From Lentibacter algarum (GTDB lineage Bacteria; Pseudomonadota; Alphaproteobacteria; Rhodobacterales; Rhodobacteraceae), in contig NZ_CP158687.1 in assembly GCF_040580765.1 (NCBI RefSeq), positions 372,001 to 436,000 of the forward strand: 64,000 bases of DNA, in the 5' to 3' direction. Below are positions 30,131 to 51,364 of this stretch, in pieces (within the stretch, counting starts at the first letter, position 1; each line of letters starts with the position of its first letter). A program made the position numbers and the translations under genes. The notes under the pieces are model-generated. The model saw nothing but the letters and a program-made list of their open reading frames with translations, searched no databases and was not told the origin of the DNA.

Positions 30131-30389
30131 TGTTACTACTCTTGGGCTGTGGCGAAGCGCTGACGCTCGCTCGTTATCGTTTGGTCTGGGTCAGCTATGC
30201 CAGCGACAAGGTAAATTTCAAGCTAAAGGGTGGCATTGTTGTGAAAAAGCGCCGTTTGTGAGTCATTTGGAGCGCAGGCTGTGAAACGAAAAAATCTCTA
30301 GACAGAAGTGTCTATTGTGTCGAAGCTTGTCCAAAATACAGTGAGTCGGCGGAGCAGCACGTCTCCTGTGGCCAGATGGGAGAAGAGAC
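30131..30389. promoter_or_regulatory. Divergent regulatory region, sat-cysC / quaternary-amine cluster
   Basis: A 259-nt intergenic region holding the perfect inverted repeat at 30299-30314. No gene is supported in it. The side nearest sat-cysC shows no clear promoter or riboswitch. Confidence 0.5.
30299..30314. promoter_or_regulatory. Perfect 16-bp inverted repeat, candidate TetR operator
   Basis: TAGACA-GAAG-TGTCTA is a perfect 6-4-6 dyad, 76 nt upstream of the first flavoprotein gene. Its shape fits a TetR-family operator and the cluster encodes a TetR-type protein at 34345. The binding partner is inferred, not shown. Confidence 0.5.
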
Positions 30390-32792
30390 ATGAATTCGCA
30401 TTATCGCGTTGTGGTTATCGGGGGTGGCGTTGTCGGGACGTCGGTTCTGTATCATCTGGCAAAGTTTGGCTGGAAAGATGTCTGCCTTTTGGAACGTTCC
30501 GTACTGACTGCGGGGTCCAGTTGGCACGCGGCTGGCGGATTTCATGCGCTCAATGCTGATCCGAATATTGCTCAGTTGCAGGCTTATACGATTGATCTTT
30601 TTGAAGAGATTCAGGAGGAAAGCGGTCAAAATATCGGCTTGCATATGACGGGTGGCCTGACGCTTGCTGGCACGCCCGACCGTTGGGAGTGGCTCCAGTC
30701 GGCGTATCGCACGTTTCAGTCAATTGGGATTGAGGATTGTCGCCTTGTGACGCCTGAAGAGGCAGGCGAGCTTTGCCCTATCATGTCAACGGAGGGTATC
30801 CTCGGAGGGATGTGGGCAGACCGGGAGGGCTATATCGATACCACAGGTACGGTCCACGCCTATGCTGGCGCAGCCAAGAAGCGCGGTGCGAGCATTTTTG
30901 AGCACACAAAGGTCGAGAGCCTTGAGCAGACAGCAGATGGCTGGCGCCTGATCACCGATAAGGGTGAGATCACTTGCGAGCATGTTGTCAACGCGGCGGG
31001 CCTTTGGGCCAAGCAAGTGGGGCGTATGGCCGGAATCGAGCTACCTGTTGCACCGCTTAAGCATCATTATTTAATTTCTGACACGATCCCTCAGCTGGAG
31101 GAGATCGACTTTGAAGTGCCGATGACAGTCGATCTGGAGGGGTTCACTTACCTTCGTCAGGATCAGAAGGGTGTTTTGCTCGGGATCTATGAGATCGACC
31201 ACGAGCACTGGGCGCTGGATGGTGCGCCTTGGGATTATGGTATTGAGCTTTTTCAAGAGCAGACCGACCGGATAGAAAACGAGCTGACGCTGGGCTTTGA
31301 GCGGTATCCAGCGCTGCAAGAGGTGGGGGTTAAGACTTGGGTCAATGGCGCGTTTACCTTTGCGCCTGATGGCAATCCGCTGGTTGGCCCTGTGCGCGGC
31401 AAGCCAGGCTATTGGTGCGCTTGTGCTGTAATGGCTGGCTTCTTGCAGGGCGGCGGTGTTGGCAAATCGCTGGCCGAATGGATCATCCATGGCGAGCCTG
31501 AAGCCGATGTCTTTGGTATGGATGTGGCGCGCTTTGGGGATTTTGCCGAGAACCGCCAGTATATCAAGGAAACGACGGGTCAGTTTTATACCCGCCGTTT
31601 CGTGATGACCTACCCGAATGAGCAGCTGCCAGCAGGGCGACCTCTCAAGATGGCACCTGCCTATAGTGATATGACCGAGGCGGGCTGTCGCTGGGGCGTA
31701 AGCTATGGACTTGAAGTGCCGCTTTACTTTGCGCCCAAAGACTTTGTCGAAACGCCCACGCTCAAGCGCTCAAATGCGCATGACCTTGTGGCTGCAGAAT
31801 GCAAAGCGACACGTGAGGCTGTTGGCTTGCTTGATATCTCGGGCTTCTCGCGCTTTGAGGTGACTGGTGAGGGCGCTGAGGCGTGGCTTGACCATATCAT
31901 GGCCTCCAAGCTCCCAGCGCCAGGGCGTGCAAAGCTTGCGCCAATGCTCTCGGAAGCGGGCAAGCTCAAAGGGGATCTCACGATCTTTAATTGGGGCGAT
32001 GGAACCTACTGGATCATGGGCAGCTACTATCTGCGCGAATGGCATATGCGCTGGTTTGATGATCATATGGGCGAGGGTGTGACCCTAAGCGATATTTCGG
32101 ACAAGATGGTGGGCTTCTCCCTCTCTGGACCAAATTCTCGCAAAGTTTTGGAGAGGCTCACTGTTGATCCGATTGGCGACCTCAAATTCATGGGGTGTGG
32201 CAGCTACGACTTGGGCTTGCTTAAGTGTAAGATTGGGCGGCTCTCGCTGACAGGAGAGCTGGGGTATGAAATCAATTGTTCGGCTTCTGAGCACATTGCT
32301 CTGCGTAAAATGCTACTTGAGGCAGGAGCTGATCTTGGCATGCGCGAGGTTGGTTTTAATGCGATGCTCAGTATGCGGCTTGAAAAGAGCTTTGGGATCT
32401 GGAGCGCGGAGTTCACCCAAGGCTATACGGCGGCGCAGACGGGTATGGACCGCTGGATTGACTGGGATAAAGAATTTGTCGGTAAAGCAGCAGCACTGGC
32501 TGAGCAAAGCGGCAGCGGCCCCGCGCAAAAGCTGGTCATGCTTGAAGTCGAGGCCGACGGGGCCGATGCGAGCGGGTATGAGCCTATCTGGTCGGGCGGC
32601 GCGCTTGTCGGGTTTGTGACCTCGGGGGGATATGGCCACACCTTGGGCAAGTCCTATGCCATGGCCATGGTCAATCGCGAGCTGACGTCGGAGGGCACTG
32701 AGCTTTTGGTGCACGTCGTTGGCGCAGAGCGTGCAGCAAAAGTCATTGCGGCTTCGCCTTGTGACCCTGCTGGCAAAGCGATGCGGGGCTGA
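30390..32792 (+). CDS. FAD-dependent oxidoreductase fused to GcvT (dimethylglycine/sarcosine dehydrogenase family)
   Basis: An 800-residue, two-part protein. Residues 1-380 are a DAO-type FAD domain with the GGGVVGTSV dinucleotide fold and GSSWHAAGG, whose H46 aligns with the His that covalently holds FAD in DMGDH and sarcosine dehydrogenase. A FAO_M linker and GcvT domains (about 430-790) follow, which in DMGDH bind tetrahydrofolate and take the methyl carbon as methylene-THF. The likely reaction is oxidative N-demethylation of a secondary or tertiary amine; the substrate is not determinable. mttB starts one base after its stop, so the two are translationally coupled. Confidence 0.9.
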   Translation: MNSHYRVVVIGGGVVGTSVLYHLAKFGWKDVCLLERSVLTAGSSWHAAGGFHALNADPNIAQLQAYTIDLFEEIQEESGQNIGLHMTGGLTLAGTPDRWEWLQSAYRTFQSIGIEDCRLVTPEEAGELCPIMSTEGILGGMWADREGYIDTTGTVHAYAGAAKKRGASIFEHTKVESLEQTADGWRLITDKGEITCEHVVNAAGLWAKQVGRMAGIELPVAPLKHHYLISDTIPQLEEIDFEVPMTVDLEGFTYLRQDQKGVLLGIYEIDHEHWALDGAPWDYGIELFQEQTDRIENELTLGFERYPALQEVGVKTWVNGAFTFAPDGNPLVGPVRGKPGYWCACAVMAGFLQGGGVGKSLAEWIIHGEPEADVFGMDVARFGDFAENRQYIKETTGQFYTRRFVMTYPNEQLPAGRPLKMAPAYSDMTEAGCRWGVSYGLEVPLYFAPKDFVETPTLKRSNAHDLVAAECKATREAVGLLDISGFSRFEVTGEGAEAWLDHIMASKLPAPGRAKLAPMLSEAGKLKGDLTIFNWGDGTYWIMGSYYLREWHMRWFDDHMGEGVTLSDISDKMVGFSLSGPNSRKVLERLTVDPIGDLKFMGCGSYDLGLLKCKIGRLSLTGELGYEINCSASEHIALRKMLLEAGADLGMREVGFNAMLSMRLEKSFGIWSAEFTQGYTAAQTGMDRWIDWDKEFVGKAAALAEQSGSGPAQKLVMLEVEADGADASGYEPIWSGGALVGFVTSGGYGHTLGKSYAMAMVNRELTSEGTELLVHVVGAERAAKVIAASPCDPAGKAMRG

Positions 32793-32793
32793 G

Positions 32794-34335
32794 ATGGCAG
32801 AGACCAAAGCCAACAGACCCAGACGGCGCGGACGTGCCGACGCTAAGGCTGCGCCGTTTGAGCGCAAGACGAACTATCGCAATCTGAAAAATCCGTTTCC
32901 GCCAATGAAGGTGTTTTCAGACGATCAGATTGAAAACATGCATGAAACGGCTCTTCGCACTTTGGAAGAGCTGGGGATGCGTGTGCTTTTGCCTGAAGCC
33001 ATCGCGATCTTTAAGGCCGGTGGTGCGCGGGTTGTGGGTGATATGGTGTACATCGGGCGCGAGATGGTTGCTGCGGCGCTTGCGAGCGCACCAAAGTCGA
33101 TTGTGGGGCGCGGGGGCGCAAGCGAGCGCGATGTAACGCTTGAGCTTGGCAGTCTCGTTTTTCAGCCAGGCGCGGGTGCGCCGAATGCAACGGATCTTGT
33201 TCGGGGGCGCCGCCCCGGTTCTGCACGTGATTTTATCGAATATACGAAAATCGCTCATCACTATGATGTCTTTCAGATGATGTCGCCCTCTGTTGAGCCA
33301 CAGGATGTGCCGACGCATCTGCGGCACTACTTTACGATGCAGACGCAGTTGGAGCTGACGGATAAGTTTCCCTTCGTTTTTGCGCGTGGGACGCCGCAGA
33401 CGATGGATGGGTTTCGTATGCTGCAAGACTATCGCGGTGTGGACGACGAGACGTTTCTGTCTGATCCGTATTGTTACACGATCATCAATACCAACAGCCC
33501 GCGCACGCTTGATATCCCTATGGCGCAGGGGCTGATCGATTTTGCCCGCCACGGACAGCTTTCGATTGTTACTCCCTTTACGCTGATGGGAGCGATGGCA
33601 CCTATTACTGTGGCTGGGGCTATCACGCTCAGTCATTCGGAGGCTTTGGCTGGCATCACGCTTACACAACTTGTCAGATCAGGTGCGCCCGTTTGTTATG
33701 GTACCTTCACCTCCAATGTGGATATGAAATCTGGCGCGCCTGCCTTTGGAACGCCTTCGCATTTTCAAGCCAGCCTTGCAGCGGGTCAGCTCGCGCGCTT
33801 TACAGGCCTGCCTTGGCGCTCGGCTGCGGGCTCGGCCTCAAACACCAATGATGTGCAAGCGGCGAACGAAAACCAGATGGGCCTTTGGGGCTGCCTCATG
33901 GCAGGGGCGACTGTGATTATTCACTCTGCAGGGTGGCTTGAGGGTGGATTGAGCGTCTCTTATGAGAAAGTCATCACCGACGCTGAAGTGCTCAATATGA
34001 TAGCGGAGCTTTGCGCCGGAGCTGAGGCAGGGCCCGATGAGATCGGCTTTGAAAAGGCGATCAGCGAGGTGCAACCATCGGGACATTTCTTCGCAACAAC
34101 GCAAACGATGGAGCGTTACAACACTGCGTTTTATGAGCCGCATGTGCATGACTACGCCAACTTTGGAACATGGACAGAGCGCGGCTCAGAGGATGCGAAC
34201 ACGCGGGCCACTAAAGTCTGGCAGGGTATCCTTGCGGCAGACAGCCGCCCTGCGGTGGACGAAACTCGGCTGGGCACGCTACAAGACTTTATTGCCAAAC
34301 GCACGGAAGAAGGCGGTGCGCCGCCTGAAAGCTGA
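32794..34335 (+). CDS. MttB-family (trimethylamine/betaine) methyltransferase, non-pyrrolysine
   Basis: A 513-residue COG5598 protein. The ATG at 32794 is one base after the previous stop. The N-terminus has a basic tail, RPRRRGRADAK. Conserved family segments include QDVPTHLRHYF, the NTNSPRTLD and MAQGLIDFARHGQ blocks and GAMAPITVAGAI. The frame has no in-frame TAG, so pyrrolysine, used by archaeal MttB, is absent; relatives of this type (MtgB, MtpB) demethylate glycine betaine or proline betaine to a corrinoid protein. No corrinoid-binding partner is nearby, so the methyl acceptor is unknown. Confidence 0.88.
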   Translation: MAETKANRPRRRGRADAKAAPFERKTNYRNLKNPFPPMKVFSDDQIENMHETALRTLEELGMRVLLPEAIAIFKAGGARVVGDMVYIGREMVAAALASAPKSIVGRGGASERDVTLELGSLVFQPGAGAPNATDLVRGRRPGSARDFIEYTKIAHHYDVFQMMSPSVEPQDVPTHLRHYFTMQTQLELTDKFPFVFARGTPQTMDGFRMLQDYRGVDDETFLSDPYCYTIINTNSPRTLDIPMAQGLIDFARHGQLSIVTPFTLMGAMAPITVAGAITLSHSEALAGITLTQLVRSGAPVCYGTFTSNVDMKSGAPAFGTPSHFQASLAAGQLARFTGLPWRSAAGSASNTNDVQAANENQMGLWGCLMAGATVIIHSAGWLEGGLSVSYEKVITDAEVLNMIAELCAGAEAGPDEIGFEKAISEVQPSGHFFATTQTMERYNTAFYEPHVHDYANFGTWTERGSEDANTRATKVWQGILAADSRPAVDETRLGTLQDFIAKRTEEGGAPPES

Positions 34336-34344
34336 GGGAAACCC

Positions 34345-35016
34345 ATGTCAAAAGCACCAGCCCTTCTTTTGCACCGTGATGATCCTGACAAGCCGCCGCT
34401 TGTGGGGCACGTCAAGGTCACGCGCGAAGACTGGCTGAATGTGGCGCGGGACATATTGATCAGTGAAGGCGTGGGGCAAGTGAAGGTGCTGGGGATTGCG
34501 GAGCGGCTCGACGTCTCGCGGTCATCTTTTTATTGGTATTTCAAGAGCCGCGAAGACTTGCTCAGCCAGCTTCTAGAGGATTGGAATGCCACCAACACAG
34601 GGATCATGATCCGTCATACAGAACTCCCTGCGAAGACCATAACGGGCGCGCTTAATAACTTCTTTCGCTGTGTTGTGGACCCAGAAGGCTTCAATCCGCA
34701 ACTCGACTTTGCTGTGCGGGAATGGGCGCGGCGCGACGGCTCTGTGCGGCGTGTCATTGACCGAGCTGATGCGGCGCGCCAAGATGCGATTACCAAGATG
34801 TTTGAGCGTTACGGATATGATCCAGCTGAAGCTGATATTCGCGCGCGCGTGCTGTATTATCAGCAGATCGGTTACTATGCGCTCGATCTGGCCGAAACGC
34901 TGGAAGAACGGCTGACGCGGGTTGAGGGCTATCTCTATTGCTTTACAGGCGTTCTGCCCACAGCTGAAGAAGTTGCTGATTTTAGATCGTTTTCGCGCTC
35001 GGTGGATTTAACGTGA
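34345..35016 (+). CDS. TetR-family transcriptional regulator
   Basis: A 223-residue regulator. The N-terminal TetR DNA-binding domain covers about residues 25-72: WLNVARDILISEGVGQVKVLGIAERLDVSRSSFYWYF, with the classic second half of the helix-turn-helix. The C-terminal half is a helical ligand-binding region. Its place inside the methylamine cluster, 9 nt after mttB, suggests local control, probably through the dyad at 30299. The effector would be expected to be the substrate or an intermediate. Confidence 0.92.
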   Translation: MSKAPALLLHRDDPDKPPLVGHVKVTREDWLNVARDILISEGVGQVKVLGIAERLDVSRSSFYWYFKSREDLLSQLLEDWNATNTGIMIRHTELPAKTITGALNNFFRCVVDPEGFNPQLDFAVREWARRDGSVRRVIDRADAARQDAITKMFERYGYDPAEADIRARVLYYQQIGYYALDLAETLEERLTRVEGYLYCFTGVLPTAEEVADFRSFSRSVDLT

Positions 35017-35120
35017 GGCGCTTATGAGGGTTGTGAGTGGAGCTAAGCTCGCTCAGTTATTTCTGTTCTTTTCTTAGGAATGCGAGCGTGTAAGCTCTGC
35101 CAAAACAAGCGAGGCTTATC

Positions 35121-37160
35121 ATGAGCAAAGATGCTCTTCTGCAACCCTATCAGCTCAAACATCTGACGCTGAAAAACCGCATCATGACGACAAGCCATGA
35201 GCCAGCCTATCCTGAAAACGGGATGCCAACAGAGCGCTATCGTGCCTATCACGAGGCACGCGCCAAGGCGGGGGTGGCTCTTGCAATGACGGCAGGTTCG
35301 GCGGCTGTGAGCCGTGATAGTCCACCTGTGTTTAACAATATCCTCGCTTACAAAGACGAGGTTGTCCCATGGATGCGGGCGCTGAGCGACGCGTGTCACG
35401 AACATGGCTGTGCCGTGATGATCCAGCTCACGCACCTTGGCCGCCGTACCGGTTGGAACAAAGGCGACTGGCTGCCCTCGCTTGCGCCATCGCACAGCCG
35501 TGAGCCTGCGCACCGTGCTTTTCCGAAGATGATGGAAGACTTCGATATTGTGCGGATCATCGAGGACTATGCCGATGCGGCGGAGAGGATGCAGGCCGCA
35601 GGCCTAGATGGCATTGAGCTTCAAGCTTACGGCCACCTCATCGATCAGTTCTACTCGCCCTTCACCAACGATTGGTCCGCGCCTTATGGTGGCAGCCTTG
35701 AGAACCGTATGCGCTTTGGGTTTGAGGTGCTTGACGCGATCCGCAAACGTGTTGGGGACGAATTCGTTATCGGGGTGCGCTACACTGCAGATGAAGCCGA
35801 GGAGGGTGGCATCACGCCCGAAGAGGGCCTCAAGATCGCCCATGCGCTGAAAGCGAGTGGACAGGTCGATTTTCTGAATGTGATTCGTGGGCGTATTCAT
35901 ACCGATCCTGCGATGACCGATGTGATTCCTGTGCAGGGGATGCGTTCGGCGCCACATCTTGATTTTGCGGGTACTGTGCGCGCTGAAACAGGTATGCCGA
36001 CTTTTCATGCCGCAAGAATTCCCGATGTGGCGACAGCGCGGCATGCTGTGACTTCTGGCCTGCTTGATATGGTGGGGATGACACGTGCGCATATGGCCGA
36101 CCCTTTAATTGTGACGAAAATTATGGAAGGGCGCGAAGATGATATCCGGCCCTGTGTGGGCGCGACCTATTGTTTAGATCGCATCTATCAAGCGGGTGAA
36201 GCGCTCTGCATTCATAATGCTGCCACGGGCCGCGAACTGAGTATGCCTCATGAAATTGTACCTTCTGACAGCCCCAAGAAGGTTGTGATTGTCGGAGCCG
36301 GGCCCGCAGGTCTTGAGGCGGCGCGTGTGGCCGCCGAGCGGGGGCACAATGTAACCGTTTTTGAAGCTGCGTCCGAAGCAGGTGGACAGATCCGCCTTAC
36401 CGCGCAAAACAAACGCCGAGCGGAAATGATCGGGATTATTGATTGGCGGATGGCACAATGTGCAGCCCGCGACGTGCAGTTTCGCTTCAATACCTATGCC
36501 GAGGCGCAGGATGTGCTCGGGCTCGCGCCTGATGTGGTGATCATTGCGACAGGTGGCTTGCCAGAGGTCACAGTGCTTGAGGCGGGCAATGAGCTTGCTG
36601 TGACAGGATGGGACATCATTGCAGGCGATGCAAAGCCTGGTGAGAATGTGCTGATCTTTGATGATGCGGGTGACCATACAGGACTGATGGCAGCGGAAGT
36701 CATCACGGCGGCGGGTGGGCATGTCGAAATTATGACCCGTGACCGCAGCTTTGCGCCTGAAGTGATGGGAATGAATCTCGTCCCTTATATGCGCAGCCTG
36801 CAAGAGAAAGATGCGGTGTTTACGGTTGGACGAACGCTGAAAAGCCTGAGCCGTAGGGGTAACAGACTATTGGCGCAGATTGGGACGGATTATTCGAGGT
36901 ACGTCTCGGACTCCGAATATGACCAAGTTATTGTCAACCAAGGGACTCTGCCTCTGGATGAGCTCTACTTTTCACTAAAGCCACAAGCGTCGAACTTTGG
37001 CGAGATTGACCACGAGGTTTTGATTGGTGGGGAGGGGAAGCTTTTCCCACAGCGCAATCCTGAAGGGGGCTTTGTGCTCTACCGGATCGGGGATGCTGTC
37101 TCATCTCGCAACACGCATGCCGCAGTTTATGACGCTTTGAGGCATGGTATTTGTTGGTAA
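35121..37160 (+). CDS. TMADH/StcD-like flavin oxidoreductase, probable N-methylproline-type demethylase
   Basis: A 679-residue protein with an old-yellow-enzyme FMN barrel (1-340), an iron-sulfur segment and a C-terminal FAD/NAD domain (from VVIVGAGPAGLEAARVAAERG). Cys345, Cys351 and Cys363 line up with the cluster ligands of trimethylamine dehydrogenase, but the fourth position is Ala348. Residue 30 is Tyr, so TMADH's covalent Cys-FMN link is absent. The N-terminus (LLQPYQLKHLTLKNRI, then HEPAYPENGMP) and RPCVGATYCLDRIY resemble StcD, the rhizobial N-methylproline demethylase. The substrate is inferred: N-methylproline or a related N-methyl amine. Confidence 0.85.
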   Translation: MSKDALLQPYQLKHLTLKNRIMTTSHEPAYPENGMPTERYRAYHEARAKAGVALAMTAGSAAVSRDSPPVFNNILAYKDEVVPWMRALSDACHEHGCAVMIQLTHLGRRTGWNKGDWLPSLAPSHSREPAHRAFPKMMEDFDIVRIIEDYADAAERMQAAGLDGIELQAYGHLIDQFYSPFTNDWSAPYGGSLENRMRFGFEVLDAIRKRVGDEFVIGVRYTADEAEEGGITPEEGLKIAHALKASGQVDFLNVIRGRIHTDPAMTDVIPVQGMRSAPHLDFAGTVRAETGMPTFHAARIPDVATARHAVTSGLLDMVGMTRAHMADPLIVTKIMEGREDDIRPCVGATYCLDRIYQAGEALCIHNAATGRELSMPHEIVPSDSPKKVVIVGAGPAGLEAARVAAERGHNVTVFEAASEAGGQIRLTAQNKRRAEMIGIIDWRMAQCAARDVQFRFNTYAEAQDVLGLAPDVVIIATGGLPEVTVLEAGNELAVTGWDIIAGDAKPGENVLIFDDAGDHTGLMAAEVITAAGGHVEIMTRDRSFAPEVMGMNLVPYMRSLQEKDAVFTVGRTLKSLSRRGNRLLAQIGTDYSRYVSDSEYDQVIVNQGTLPLDELYFSLKPQASNFGEIDHEVLIGGEGKLFPQRNPEGGFVLYRIGDAVSSRNTHAAVYDALRHGICW

Positions 37161-50914: not shown

Positions 50915-51364
50915 ATGGACATTCGTGTTCAAGACACCGTGTTTGATCTGGGTGTTGAGGCGCAAGCCTTTGCCGACAGAACATCCGCATCGGGAGCCGT
51001 TGTCACCTTTACAGGGATTGTGCGGAACAATGCCGAGGGTACGCTCGATTATATGGATATCGAACATTACCCTGGGATGACGGAAGCGGCGCTGCGGCAG
51101 ATCGCTGAGGAAGCTCATGCCAAATGGTCGCTTGAAGACGCTTTGATCATCCATCGTGTTGGTAAGATGCGGGCAGGTGAGATGATCATGATGGTGGCAA
51201 CGGCATCCCGTCATCGTAAAGATGCTTTTGAAGCCGCTGAATTTTTGATGGATTTTCTTAAGTCACGCGCACCCTTTTGGAAGAAAGAAGTCTCTCGAGA
51301 AGGCGCTGATTGGGTTGCCGCGCGCGACGAAGACGAGACTGCGCTGGCCCGCTGGCAGACATGA
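50915..51364 (+). CDS. moaE: Molybdopterin synthase catalytic subunit
   Basis: A 149-residue MoaE. The blocks GAVVTFTGIVRNNAEG and LDYMDIEHYPGMTE, the VGKMRAGEMIMMVATASRHRKDAFEA segment and the FWKKEV end are diagnostic. It acts with MoaD to make molybdopterin. Its stop overlaps the next start by ATGA. Confidence 0.96.
   Translation: MDIRVQDTVFDLGVEAQAFADRTSASGAVVTFTGIVRNNAEGTLDYMDIEHYPGMTEAALRQIAEEAHAKWSLEDALIIHRVGKMRAGEMIMMVATASRHRKDAFEAAEFLMDFLKSRAPFWKKEVSREGADWVAARDEDETALARWQT

Follow-up and report, generated by a model that had tools for sequence, protein, structure and literature searches.

One of the closest described systems to the locus reported here is the B12-dependent demethylation of glycine betaine, which a marine bacterium carries out through a core common to methionine synthesis (PMC12478193). 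In R. pomeroyi, mtgC and mtgD mutants fail to grow on glycine betaine and are methionine auxotrophs, and the authors suggested that extra PF06253 (MttB-family) genes act on further substrates (PMC12478193). We analyzed a 64,000-nucleotide window of Lentibacter algarum, corresponding to C1:372001-436000 of a single-contig genome of 3.28 Mb. It holds four genes that we call D (DMGDH/GcvT fusion), M (MttB family), R (TetR), and S (StcD/TMADH-like). D-M-R-S is likely to be a TetR-controlled operon for the stepwise, B12- and folate-dependent N-demethylation of a carboxylated betaine, with its corrinoid partner encoded at an unlinked site. Literature searches turned up no description of D-M-R. The features of the locus are as follows, G300 being a genome of the same genus:

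30299..30314, no strand: palindromic operator TAGACA-GAAG-TGTCTA, 75 bp ahead of the D start; predicted site of the TetR protein R
30390..32792, + strand: D, DMGDH-like FAD oxidoreductase with GcvT (folate) domains in the same chain, 800 aa (DAO, FAO_M, GCV_T, GCV_T_C)
32794..34335, + strand: M, non-pyrrolysine MttB-family methyltransferase, 513 aa (PF06253, full length)
34345..35016, + strand: R, TetR-family regulator within the operon, 223 aa (PF00440, TetR_N)
35017..35120, + strand: R-S intergenic stretch, a probable deletion scar judging from gene order; G300 has SoxB-SoxD-SoxA-SoxG here
35121..37160, + strand: S, OYE/TMADH-like flavoprotein (StcD-like), 679 aa (PF00724, Oxidored_FMN, plus Pyr_redox)

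All four genes are open frames on one strand with tight spacing, and their Pfam domains confirmed the families that a first-pass annotation had assigned at these positions. M matched PF06253 over the whole profile (655.6 bits against a cut-off of 25, E 4e-197, positions 1-500 of 500). Its start is the ATG at 32794, with a longer alternative from a TTG at 32719. The gene has no in-frame amber codon and hence no pyrrolysine, and the protein falls below the trimeth_pyl equivalog cut-off (255 against 525). Among known structures, M matched PDB 4yyc, 2qne, and 9yce with E values of 2e-74 to 3e-73. D has the DAO, FAO_M, and GcvT domains of a dimethylglycine dehydrogenase and matched mitochondrial DMGDH (PDB 5l46) at E 1.5e-147. 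Its SSWHAAG motif aligns with the matching motif of the mitochondrial enzyme, and the histidine of this motif is presumably the residue that carries the flavin. Four residues that we assume to have functional roles were conserved: His 46, His 225, and Tyr 254 were kept in 95/96 segments and Asp 529 in 94/96, the remaining segments not covering the site. D may thus be an oxidative N-demethylase that passes a C1 unit to tetrahydrofolate. The genome encodes seven DMGDH/SDH-like GcvT fusions, of which the six besides D are 29-47% identical to it; with so many paralogues, it is unsafe to transfer the dimethylglycine dehydrogenase function to D. The annotated quaternary-amine demethylation cluster is likely right, and we agree that M would perform the first step and D would act on a further N-methyl group.

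Conservation was scored in two partly overlapping sets, a family set of 295 genomes (one per genus) with 54 loci carrying M at ≥57% identity and a named set of 55 loci; 31 loci with M below 57% were excluded from the counts. D was directly ahead of M in 44/52 family-set and 45/53 named-set loci with enough sequence, and R was directly behind M in 39/53 loci of each set. Since the arrangement is conserved across loci, chance linkage of D-M-R is excluded. Enzymes further downstream were counted in loci with at least 5.5 kb of downstream sequence (49 in the family set and 45 in the named set). SoxB followed R in 9/49 and 4/45 of these, and a DAO-family oxidase did so in 12/49 and 15/45, never with SoxB in the same locus, so that one or the other was present in 21/49 and 19/45. 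SoxB scored above the TIGR01373 cut-off and SoxA below that of TIGR01372. S followed R in 0/49 and 0/45 loci outside the genus that had enough flanking sequence, which rules out S as a conserved member of the D-M-R set beyond the genus. The annotation had treated the four genes as one unit and had named a clear lack of co-conservation as grounds for rejecting it; by this measure D-M-R stands, whereas S falls outside the genus. D-M-R is a real, conserved, and probably regulated operon, likely for demethylation.

The regulation is suggested by the palindrome, whose first base, 30299, is where the first-pass annotation had begun the cluster. As in a TetR-autoregulated operon, this palindromic operator lies ahead of the operon that contains R. 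The consensus across loci is TRGACA-N4-TGTCYA. Among 90 distinct D-upstream regions, the exact dyad TGGACA-N4-TGTCCA occurred in 20 and TAGACA-N4-TGTCTA in 12, compared with a maximum of 2 in 20 shuffles. A matrix trained on the same D-upstream regions that it was used to score found a site in 80/91 distinct regions, with a median of 24.4 bits against a shuffled maximum of 9.5. Exact copies numbered 69 in 2.63 Mb of M loci, where base count predicts 0.6, and 53 of the 94 D loci had one within 250 bp. Eight exact copies were not before D, and all of these were before M or importer genes. Those before M were in L052, L080, and L103, where D is not directly ahead, and in the actinobacterial M relatives L173 and L182. 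Those before importers preceded SBP_bac_5 in L052 and L059 and DctP (then DctM) in L153. The SBP_bac_5 gene at ≥70% identity had a matrix site in 5/5 loci (10.5-23.5 bits). In the window's own genome, the site at 30299-30314 was the only one of at least 13 bits in 540,055 scanned bases (next best 12.6, shuffled maximum 10.2). A one-mismatch copy at 50916-50931 scored 10.6 bits by matrix and is probably due to chance. These patterns suggest that R would bind the palindrome as its operator, and a TetR regulon spanning D-M-R and, in a few relatives, importer genes is likely.

The genome has four PF06253 genes, and M is not its MtgB. M is 32-33% identical to paralogue 1 (at 1.42 Mb). This MtgB-like protein scored 734 bits against PDB 4yyc, which we take to be from S. 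meliloti, and it shares 85% identity with L183 of R. pomeroyi SZCCDBG043, the only R. pomeroyi strain used in our comparison. The closest protein to M in that strain is L186 (66%), compared to about 34% for the MtgB-like L183. In a maximum likelihood tree of 70 rows, rooted for drawing only, M was placed in a 51-row group (100/100) that also includes the genome's paralogue 2 and Rp_L187, both on long, flagged branches. PDB 4yyc, paralogue 1, and the MttB proteins found next to S in other loci formed a separate group (99/95). Tree placement and identity together rule out M as the genome's MtgB. The genome also encodes a member (L004, C1:1742070-1743560) of a divergent PF06253 class shared with L188 of R. 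pomeroyi SZCCDBG043, in which the predicted carboxylate residues are replaced by Gly (for R309) and Glu (for H345). L188 is about 28 kb from MtgC and is possibly SPO2134 (MtgB2) judging from locus-tag spacing. Two Nevskiaceae-like loci, L165 and L167, have three MttB paralogues and a D-like gene inside about 14 kb.

Docking on the MtgB structure led to the proposal that Y94, N199, R309, H345, and F353 hold glycine betaine (PMC6855144). In 111 M-family segments with ≥57% identity to M, N199, R309, and H345 were invariant (111/111), whereas at the Y94 place 106 segments had Ala, 4 had Gly, and 1 had Ser. Tyr is the residue there in DhMtgB, PDB 4yyc, paralogue 1, and L183; the F353 place is Gly in both M and 4yyc. 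M therefore keeps three of the four MtgB residues Y94, N199, R309, and H345 and has Ala for the first. The MtyB and choline literature consulted provided no usable pocket residues. On this model, the carboxylate site of M would be retained and its ammonium pocket altered. Because the genome has a separate MtgB-like paralogue, M probably acts on a bulkier betaine than glycine betaine.

Another possible explanation is that the substrate is glycine betaine after all, with M as a second methyltransferase, D as the dimethylglycine dehydrogenase, and Sox or S for the sarcosine step, so that the operon duplicates the known roseobacter route. This would fit the resemblance of D to mitochondrial DMGDH, the three retained residues in M, and the SoxB and SoxA genes that follow in a minority of loci. 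However, the 1.42 Mb paralogue so close to PDB 4yyc is already present and keeps the Tyr, and M, which has Ala in that place, branches separately from it in the tree. In addition, the G300 cluster encodes a SoxB paralogue distinct from both SoxB proteins of the window's genome (48-50% identical), and the importers with an operator belong to the SBP_bac_5 or TRAP type; by contrast, the carrier that R. pomeroyi induces on glycine betaine is predicted to be a BCCT protein (PMC12478193). Taken together, the existence of a separate MtgB-like paralogue, the alteration of the pocket, the distinctness of the Sox paralogue, and the kind of importer make us lean away from glycine betaine alone, which we regard as rather unlikely. 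A glycine-betaine Rieske oxygenase was also considered: the sole Ring_hydroxyl_A match in the genome scored 100.7 against the GbcA cut-off of 670, so no GbcA was found, the Stc2 type not having been searched for. The homarine literature consulted gave no link between that pathway and these genes.

To our knowledge, all characterized MttB-family members use a corrinoid protein. The first-pass annotation had found no such partner for M, and locally this was correct. With the genome's own proteins as queries (≥38% identity, ≥60% coverage, mostly within 10 kb on each side), no MtgC-, MtgD-, MtgE-, or MetF2-like gene was found near M in the 143 M loci searched. Elsewhere on the chromosome, both a corrinoid protein and a corrinoid/folate methyltransferase are encoded, which rules out the absence of a partner. 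The genome has one free-standing protein with B12-binding and B12-binding_2 domains (MtgC-type), away from M. Its gene lies beside a DUF1638 gene and adjoins a betaine-homocysteine-methyltransferase-type gene of the MtgE kind (Bmt; NF005718, 592 bits against 338). One of two pterin-binding proteins is of the MtgD type: it scored 390 bits against a cut-off of 259 with NF005719, the methyltetrahydrofolate:corrinoid protein methyltransferase model. Its gene sits after a MetF-like gene whose product resembles a 5,10-methylenetetrahydrofolate reductase (PDB 7xg9, E 2e-51). Frames with B12 or pterin domains are at most 363 aa long, and therefore the genome has no full-length MetH. The same kinds of parts are reported in R. 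pomeroyi and P. inhibens, where the genes are also dispersed (PMC12478193). The genome-wide check proposed in the annotation thus produced a corrinoid protein, an MtgD-type methyltransferase, and four MttB paralogues, and the methyl acceptor described as missing exists. With MtgC, MtgD, and MetF-like parts present, the chemistry probably follows an already described type. The genome accordingly encodes the corrinoid protein and folate methyltransferase expected alongside an MttB-superfamily enzyme, and we infer their partnership with M. By homology, M may be a betaine:corrinoid methyltransferase served by the unlinked MtgC.

A corrinoid-free M, which would pass the methyl group directly to folate, for example on the GcvT domain of D, would explain why D and M are usually adjacent and why the 143 loci have no corrinoid gene nearby. 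The corrinoid dependence of the characterized family members stands against it, as does the presence of MtgC in 50/53 genomes with full-length M at ≥58%, the three exceptions being incomplete or fragmented assemblies. We consider this explanation very improbable. MtgC co-occurrence is by itself uninformative as a test of the corrinoid need of M since MtgC was found in 273/295 family genomes.

The role of S is less clear-cut. S matched 2,4-dienoyl-CoA reductase (PDB 1ps9) at E 1e-61 and TMADH (PDB 1djq) at E 1e-44, and it has the Oxidored_FMN barrel and pyridine-nucleotide redox domain of StcD and TMADH. TMADH and 2,4-dienoyl-CoA reductase have a 4Fe-4S motif of four cysteines. In the corresponding motif of S, CVGATYC...C, the second Cys is replaced by Ala, and this place was Ala in 39 and Thr in 1 of 40 S orthologues, the family pattern being CVGA-x-YC...C. 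S may be an oxidative N-demethylase of an N-methyl amino acid, judging from its homologs. S was present in 164/295 family genomes at E 1e-150 or better.

The first-pass annotation had proposed that the cluster degrades proline betaine, M producing N-methylproline, S converting this to proline, and D serving as a second demethylase of N-methylproline or of another N-methyl compound. StcD is described as an N-methylproline demethylase (PMC12239276), and S is StcD-like in domain architecture. The Ala in place of Tyr could enlarge the M pocket, and in G250 and G126 a single contig carries both S and M at a distance of about 15 kb, two loose exceptions to their separation. Among the 40 S loci, an MttB gene of another subfamily was directly ahead of S in 7/40 and a ProC-like gene was near S in 14/40 (behind S in thirteen of the fourteen). 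MttB-StcD-like pairing therefore occurs in nature, which speaks for the general idea of the annotation, but not with M: the MttB beside S is about 48% identical to the MtgB-like L183 and about 32% to M. S was near D-M-R in just 3 of the 112 fetched loci with M at ≥57%, all within the genus, and was absent near M in the other 109; the search of the 143 M loci revealed no ProC-like gene. The route through M thus has no specific support, and we think it improbable, although proline betaine as such is a possible substrate.

The recurrent MttB-then-S cluster (L203, L205, L208, L209, L211, L240, and L244) is an observation in its own right. Five of the seven have a divergent TetR gene (L203, L205, L211, L240, and L244) and four have a ProC-like gene (L205, L208, L240, and L244). 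Near MttB-S in L205 and L208 there are also DHDPS-family and aldehyde-dehydrogenase genes, which would fit proline betaine as well. This cluster is a better candidate than the window for an MttB-based route for proline betaine or hydroxyproline betaine.

S could instead have a function of its own and have come to lie next to D-M-R within this genus, leaving D-M-R alone as the pathway, a reading that is compatible with the others. Its wide distribution argues for this, and so does its setting in the 40 S loci, which lie apart from D-M-R save in two relatives of the genus and have a divergent TetR gene in 17/40; four carry a related palindrome in the S/TetR or MttB/TetR promoter. Within the genus, S is in the neighborhood of D-M-R in 3/7 genomes and away from it in 4/7. 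The window has no operator ahead of S, and there is a weak hairpin (35033-35055) between R and S, although hairpins in this region are not above chance. On the other hand, S is on the same strand, 104 bp behind R here and 27 bp behind SoxG in G300, and three species of the genus have kept it beside the cluster even though two of them lack Sox there. We find a separate function for S plausible, while leaning somewhat against it.

The history of the gap between R and S bears on this question. G299 repeats the order D-M-R-S, with identities of 94, 91, 87, and 92% to the window genes, and G300 has D-M-R-SoxB-SoxD-SoxA-SoxG-S, its SoxG being assigned by position only with no family match. G300 is the outgroup of the window and G299 in the tree, and D-M-R-Sox occurs in other genera, so the cluster Sox genes were most likely lost from the window's lineage. 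Similarity between the R-S gap and the end of SoxG in G300 was matched by 0.7% of shuffles for the window and 0.6% for G299, and that between the gaps of the window and G299 by 18.5%. Because these remnants are marginal, support for the deletion comes chiefly from gene order and the tree. Relocation of the cluster Sox within the genome is ruled out, as the two other SoxB genes it keeps are only 48-50% identical to the G300 copy.

Our preferred model, an operon for B12- and folate-dependent betaine demethylation, builds on computed gene content, conservation, the palindrome and its occurrence before relatives' importers, and the presence of MtgC-, MtgD-, and MetF-like genes. From these we infer every reaction, repression by R, the substrate class, and the role of S. 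M would take the first methyl group off the quaternary nitrogen and load it onto the cobalamin carried by the one MtgC-type protein of the genome, MtgD would hand it to tetrahydrofolate, and the MetF-like protein would channel it into C1 oxidation. D would then oxidize the resulting tertiary amine to a secondary amine, with the second C1 unit going to folate via the GcvT domain. The last methyl group (secondary to primary amine) would be removed by SoxBDAG or the DAO enzyme in those relatives with a recognizable one, and S may substitute here. R would act at the 30299 palindrome to repress the operon and would release it on binding the substrate or a product. Any N-trimethyl amino acid would be compatible with this sequence of steps, and M followed by D or S would suffice in the case of proline betaine. 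CocE/NonD-type hydrolases (Peptidase_S15) were seen near M or S in L045, L047, L054, L199, L200, and L210, accompanied in L200 and L210 by genes that, judged by eye, encode an apparent oligopeptide-type ABC transporter. A betaine ester or amide as the substrate would fit these neighbors, which is speculation.

Several results weigh against this model. D was absent from its place in 16/107 M loci, and neither SoxB nor a DAO oxidase was seen in 28/49 and 26/45 loci. The resemblance of the DAO enzyme to N-methyltryptophan oxidase is weak (82.6 bits against a cut-off of 257), and the MetF-like protein falls under the MTHFR cut-offs of both Pfam (11.4 against 24) and NCBIfam (21.6 against 293.7). 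MtgC is near-universal, so its presence shows availability and not a specific link to M or enrichment with it, and in R. pomeroyi MtgC also serves methionine synthesis (PMC12478193). The pocket residues derive from docking on an apo structure (PMC6855144). The link between operator and importer was seen in few genomes: two more distant SBP_bac_5 copies had no site (7.4 and -3.3 bits), and a different SBP_bac_5 gene at 17 clusters gave one candidate (L067, 14.5 bits, 373 bp upstream), the rest scoring at most 3.1. For this genome, no importer was found in the 540 kb of 3.28 Mb (about one sixth) that was scanned. Finally, two other SoxB genes remain in the genome, so the absence of Sox from the cluster does not on its own make the last step a task of S.

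A broader proposal, in which our confidence falls a little short of even, is that D-M-R and its importer together form a widespread system, aerobic and B12-dependent, that removes every N-methyl group from some trimethylated amino acid distinct from glycine betaine, with one conserved operator from Rhodobacteraceae to actinobacterial M relatives and an interchangeable last enzyme (SoxBDAG, DAO oxidase, or OYE-type S). The operon provides one extra MttB paralogue with D as a regular partner and with a repressor and an operator; some relatives have importer genes behind this operator as well. Because there is a repressor and there are operator-linked importers, the substrate can be sought through the ligand of R and the binding protein of the importer. 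Through such a system, one more osmolyte or algal betaine would enter the B12-dependent flow of marine carbon and nitrogen.

Among known systems, MtgB-MtgC-MtgD/MetF2 of R. pomeroyi DSS-3 (PMC12478193) resembles this one in having a PF06253 enzyme unlinked to its corrinoid and pterin partners and in the kinds of partner genes present, and differs in that M here is tied to D, R, and the operator. D. hafniense MtgB (PDB 2qne) and PDB 4yyc are homologous to M over nearly the full length and share N199, R309, and H345 with it, but they are separate from M in the tree and have Tyr94 where M has Ala. MtpB, the proline-betaine methyltransferase of Eubacterium limosum, is like M an MttB-superfamily enzyme, and its single corrinoid protein is described as shared among several paralogues (PMC12478193). 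D has the domain order and the aligned SxWHAAG motif of mitochondrial DMGDH (PDB 5l46), from which it differs in being bacterial, linked to MttB, and one of seven paralogues in its genome. SoxBDAG sarcosine oxidase is not in the window's cluster, although SoxB comes after R in the loci counted above and SoxBDAG lies between R and S in G300. StcD and TMADH share the OYE barrel and redox domain with S, the likeness to StcD being one of architecture only, and TMADH differs from S at the second 4Fe-4S Cys, which is Ala in S.

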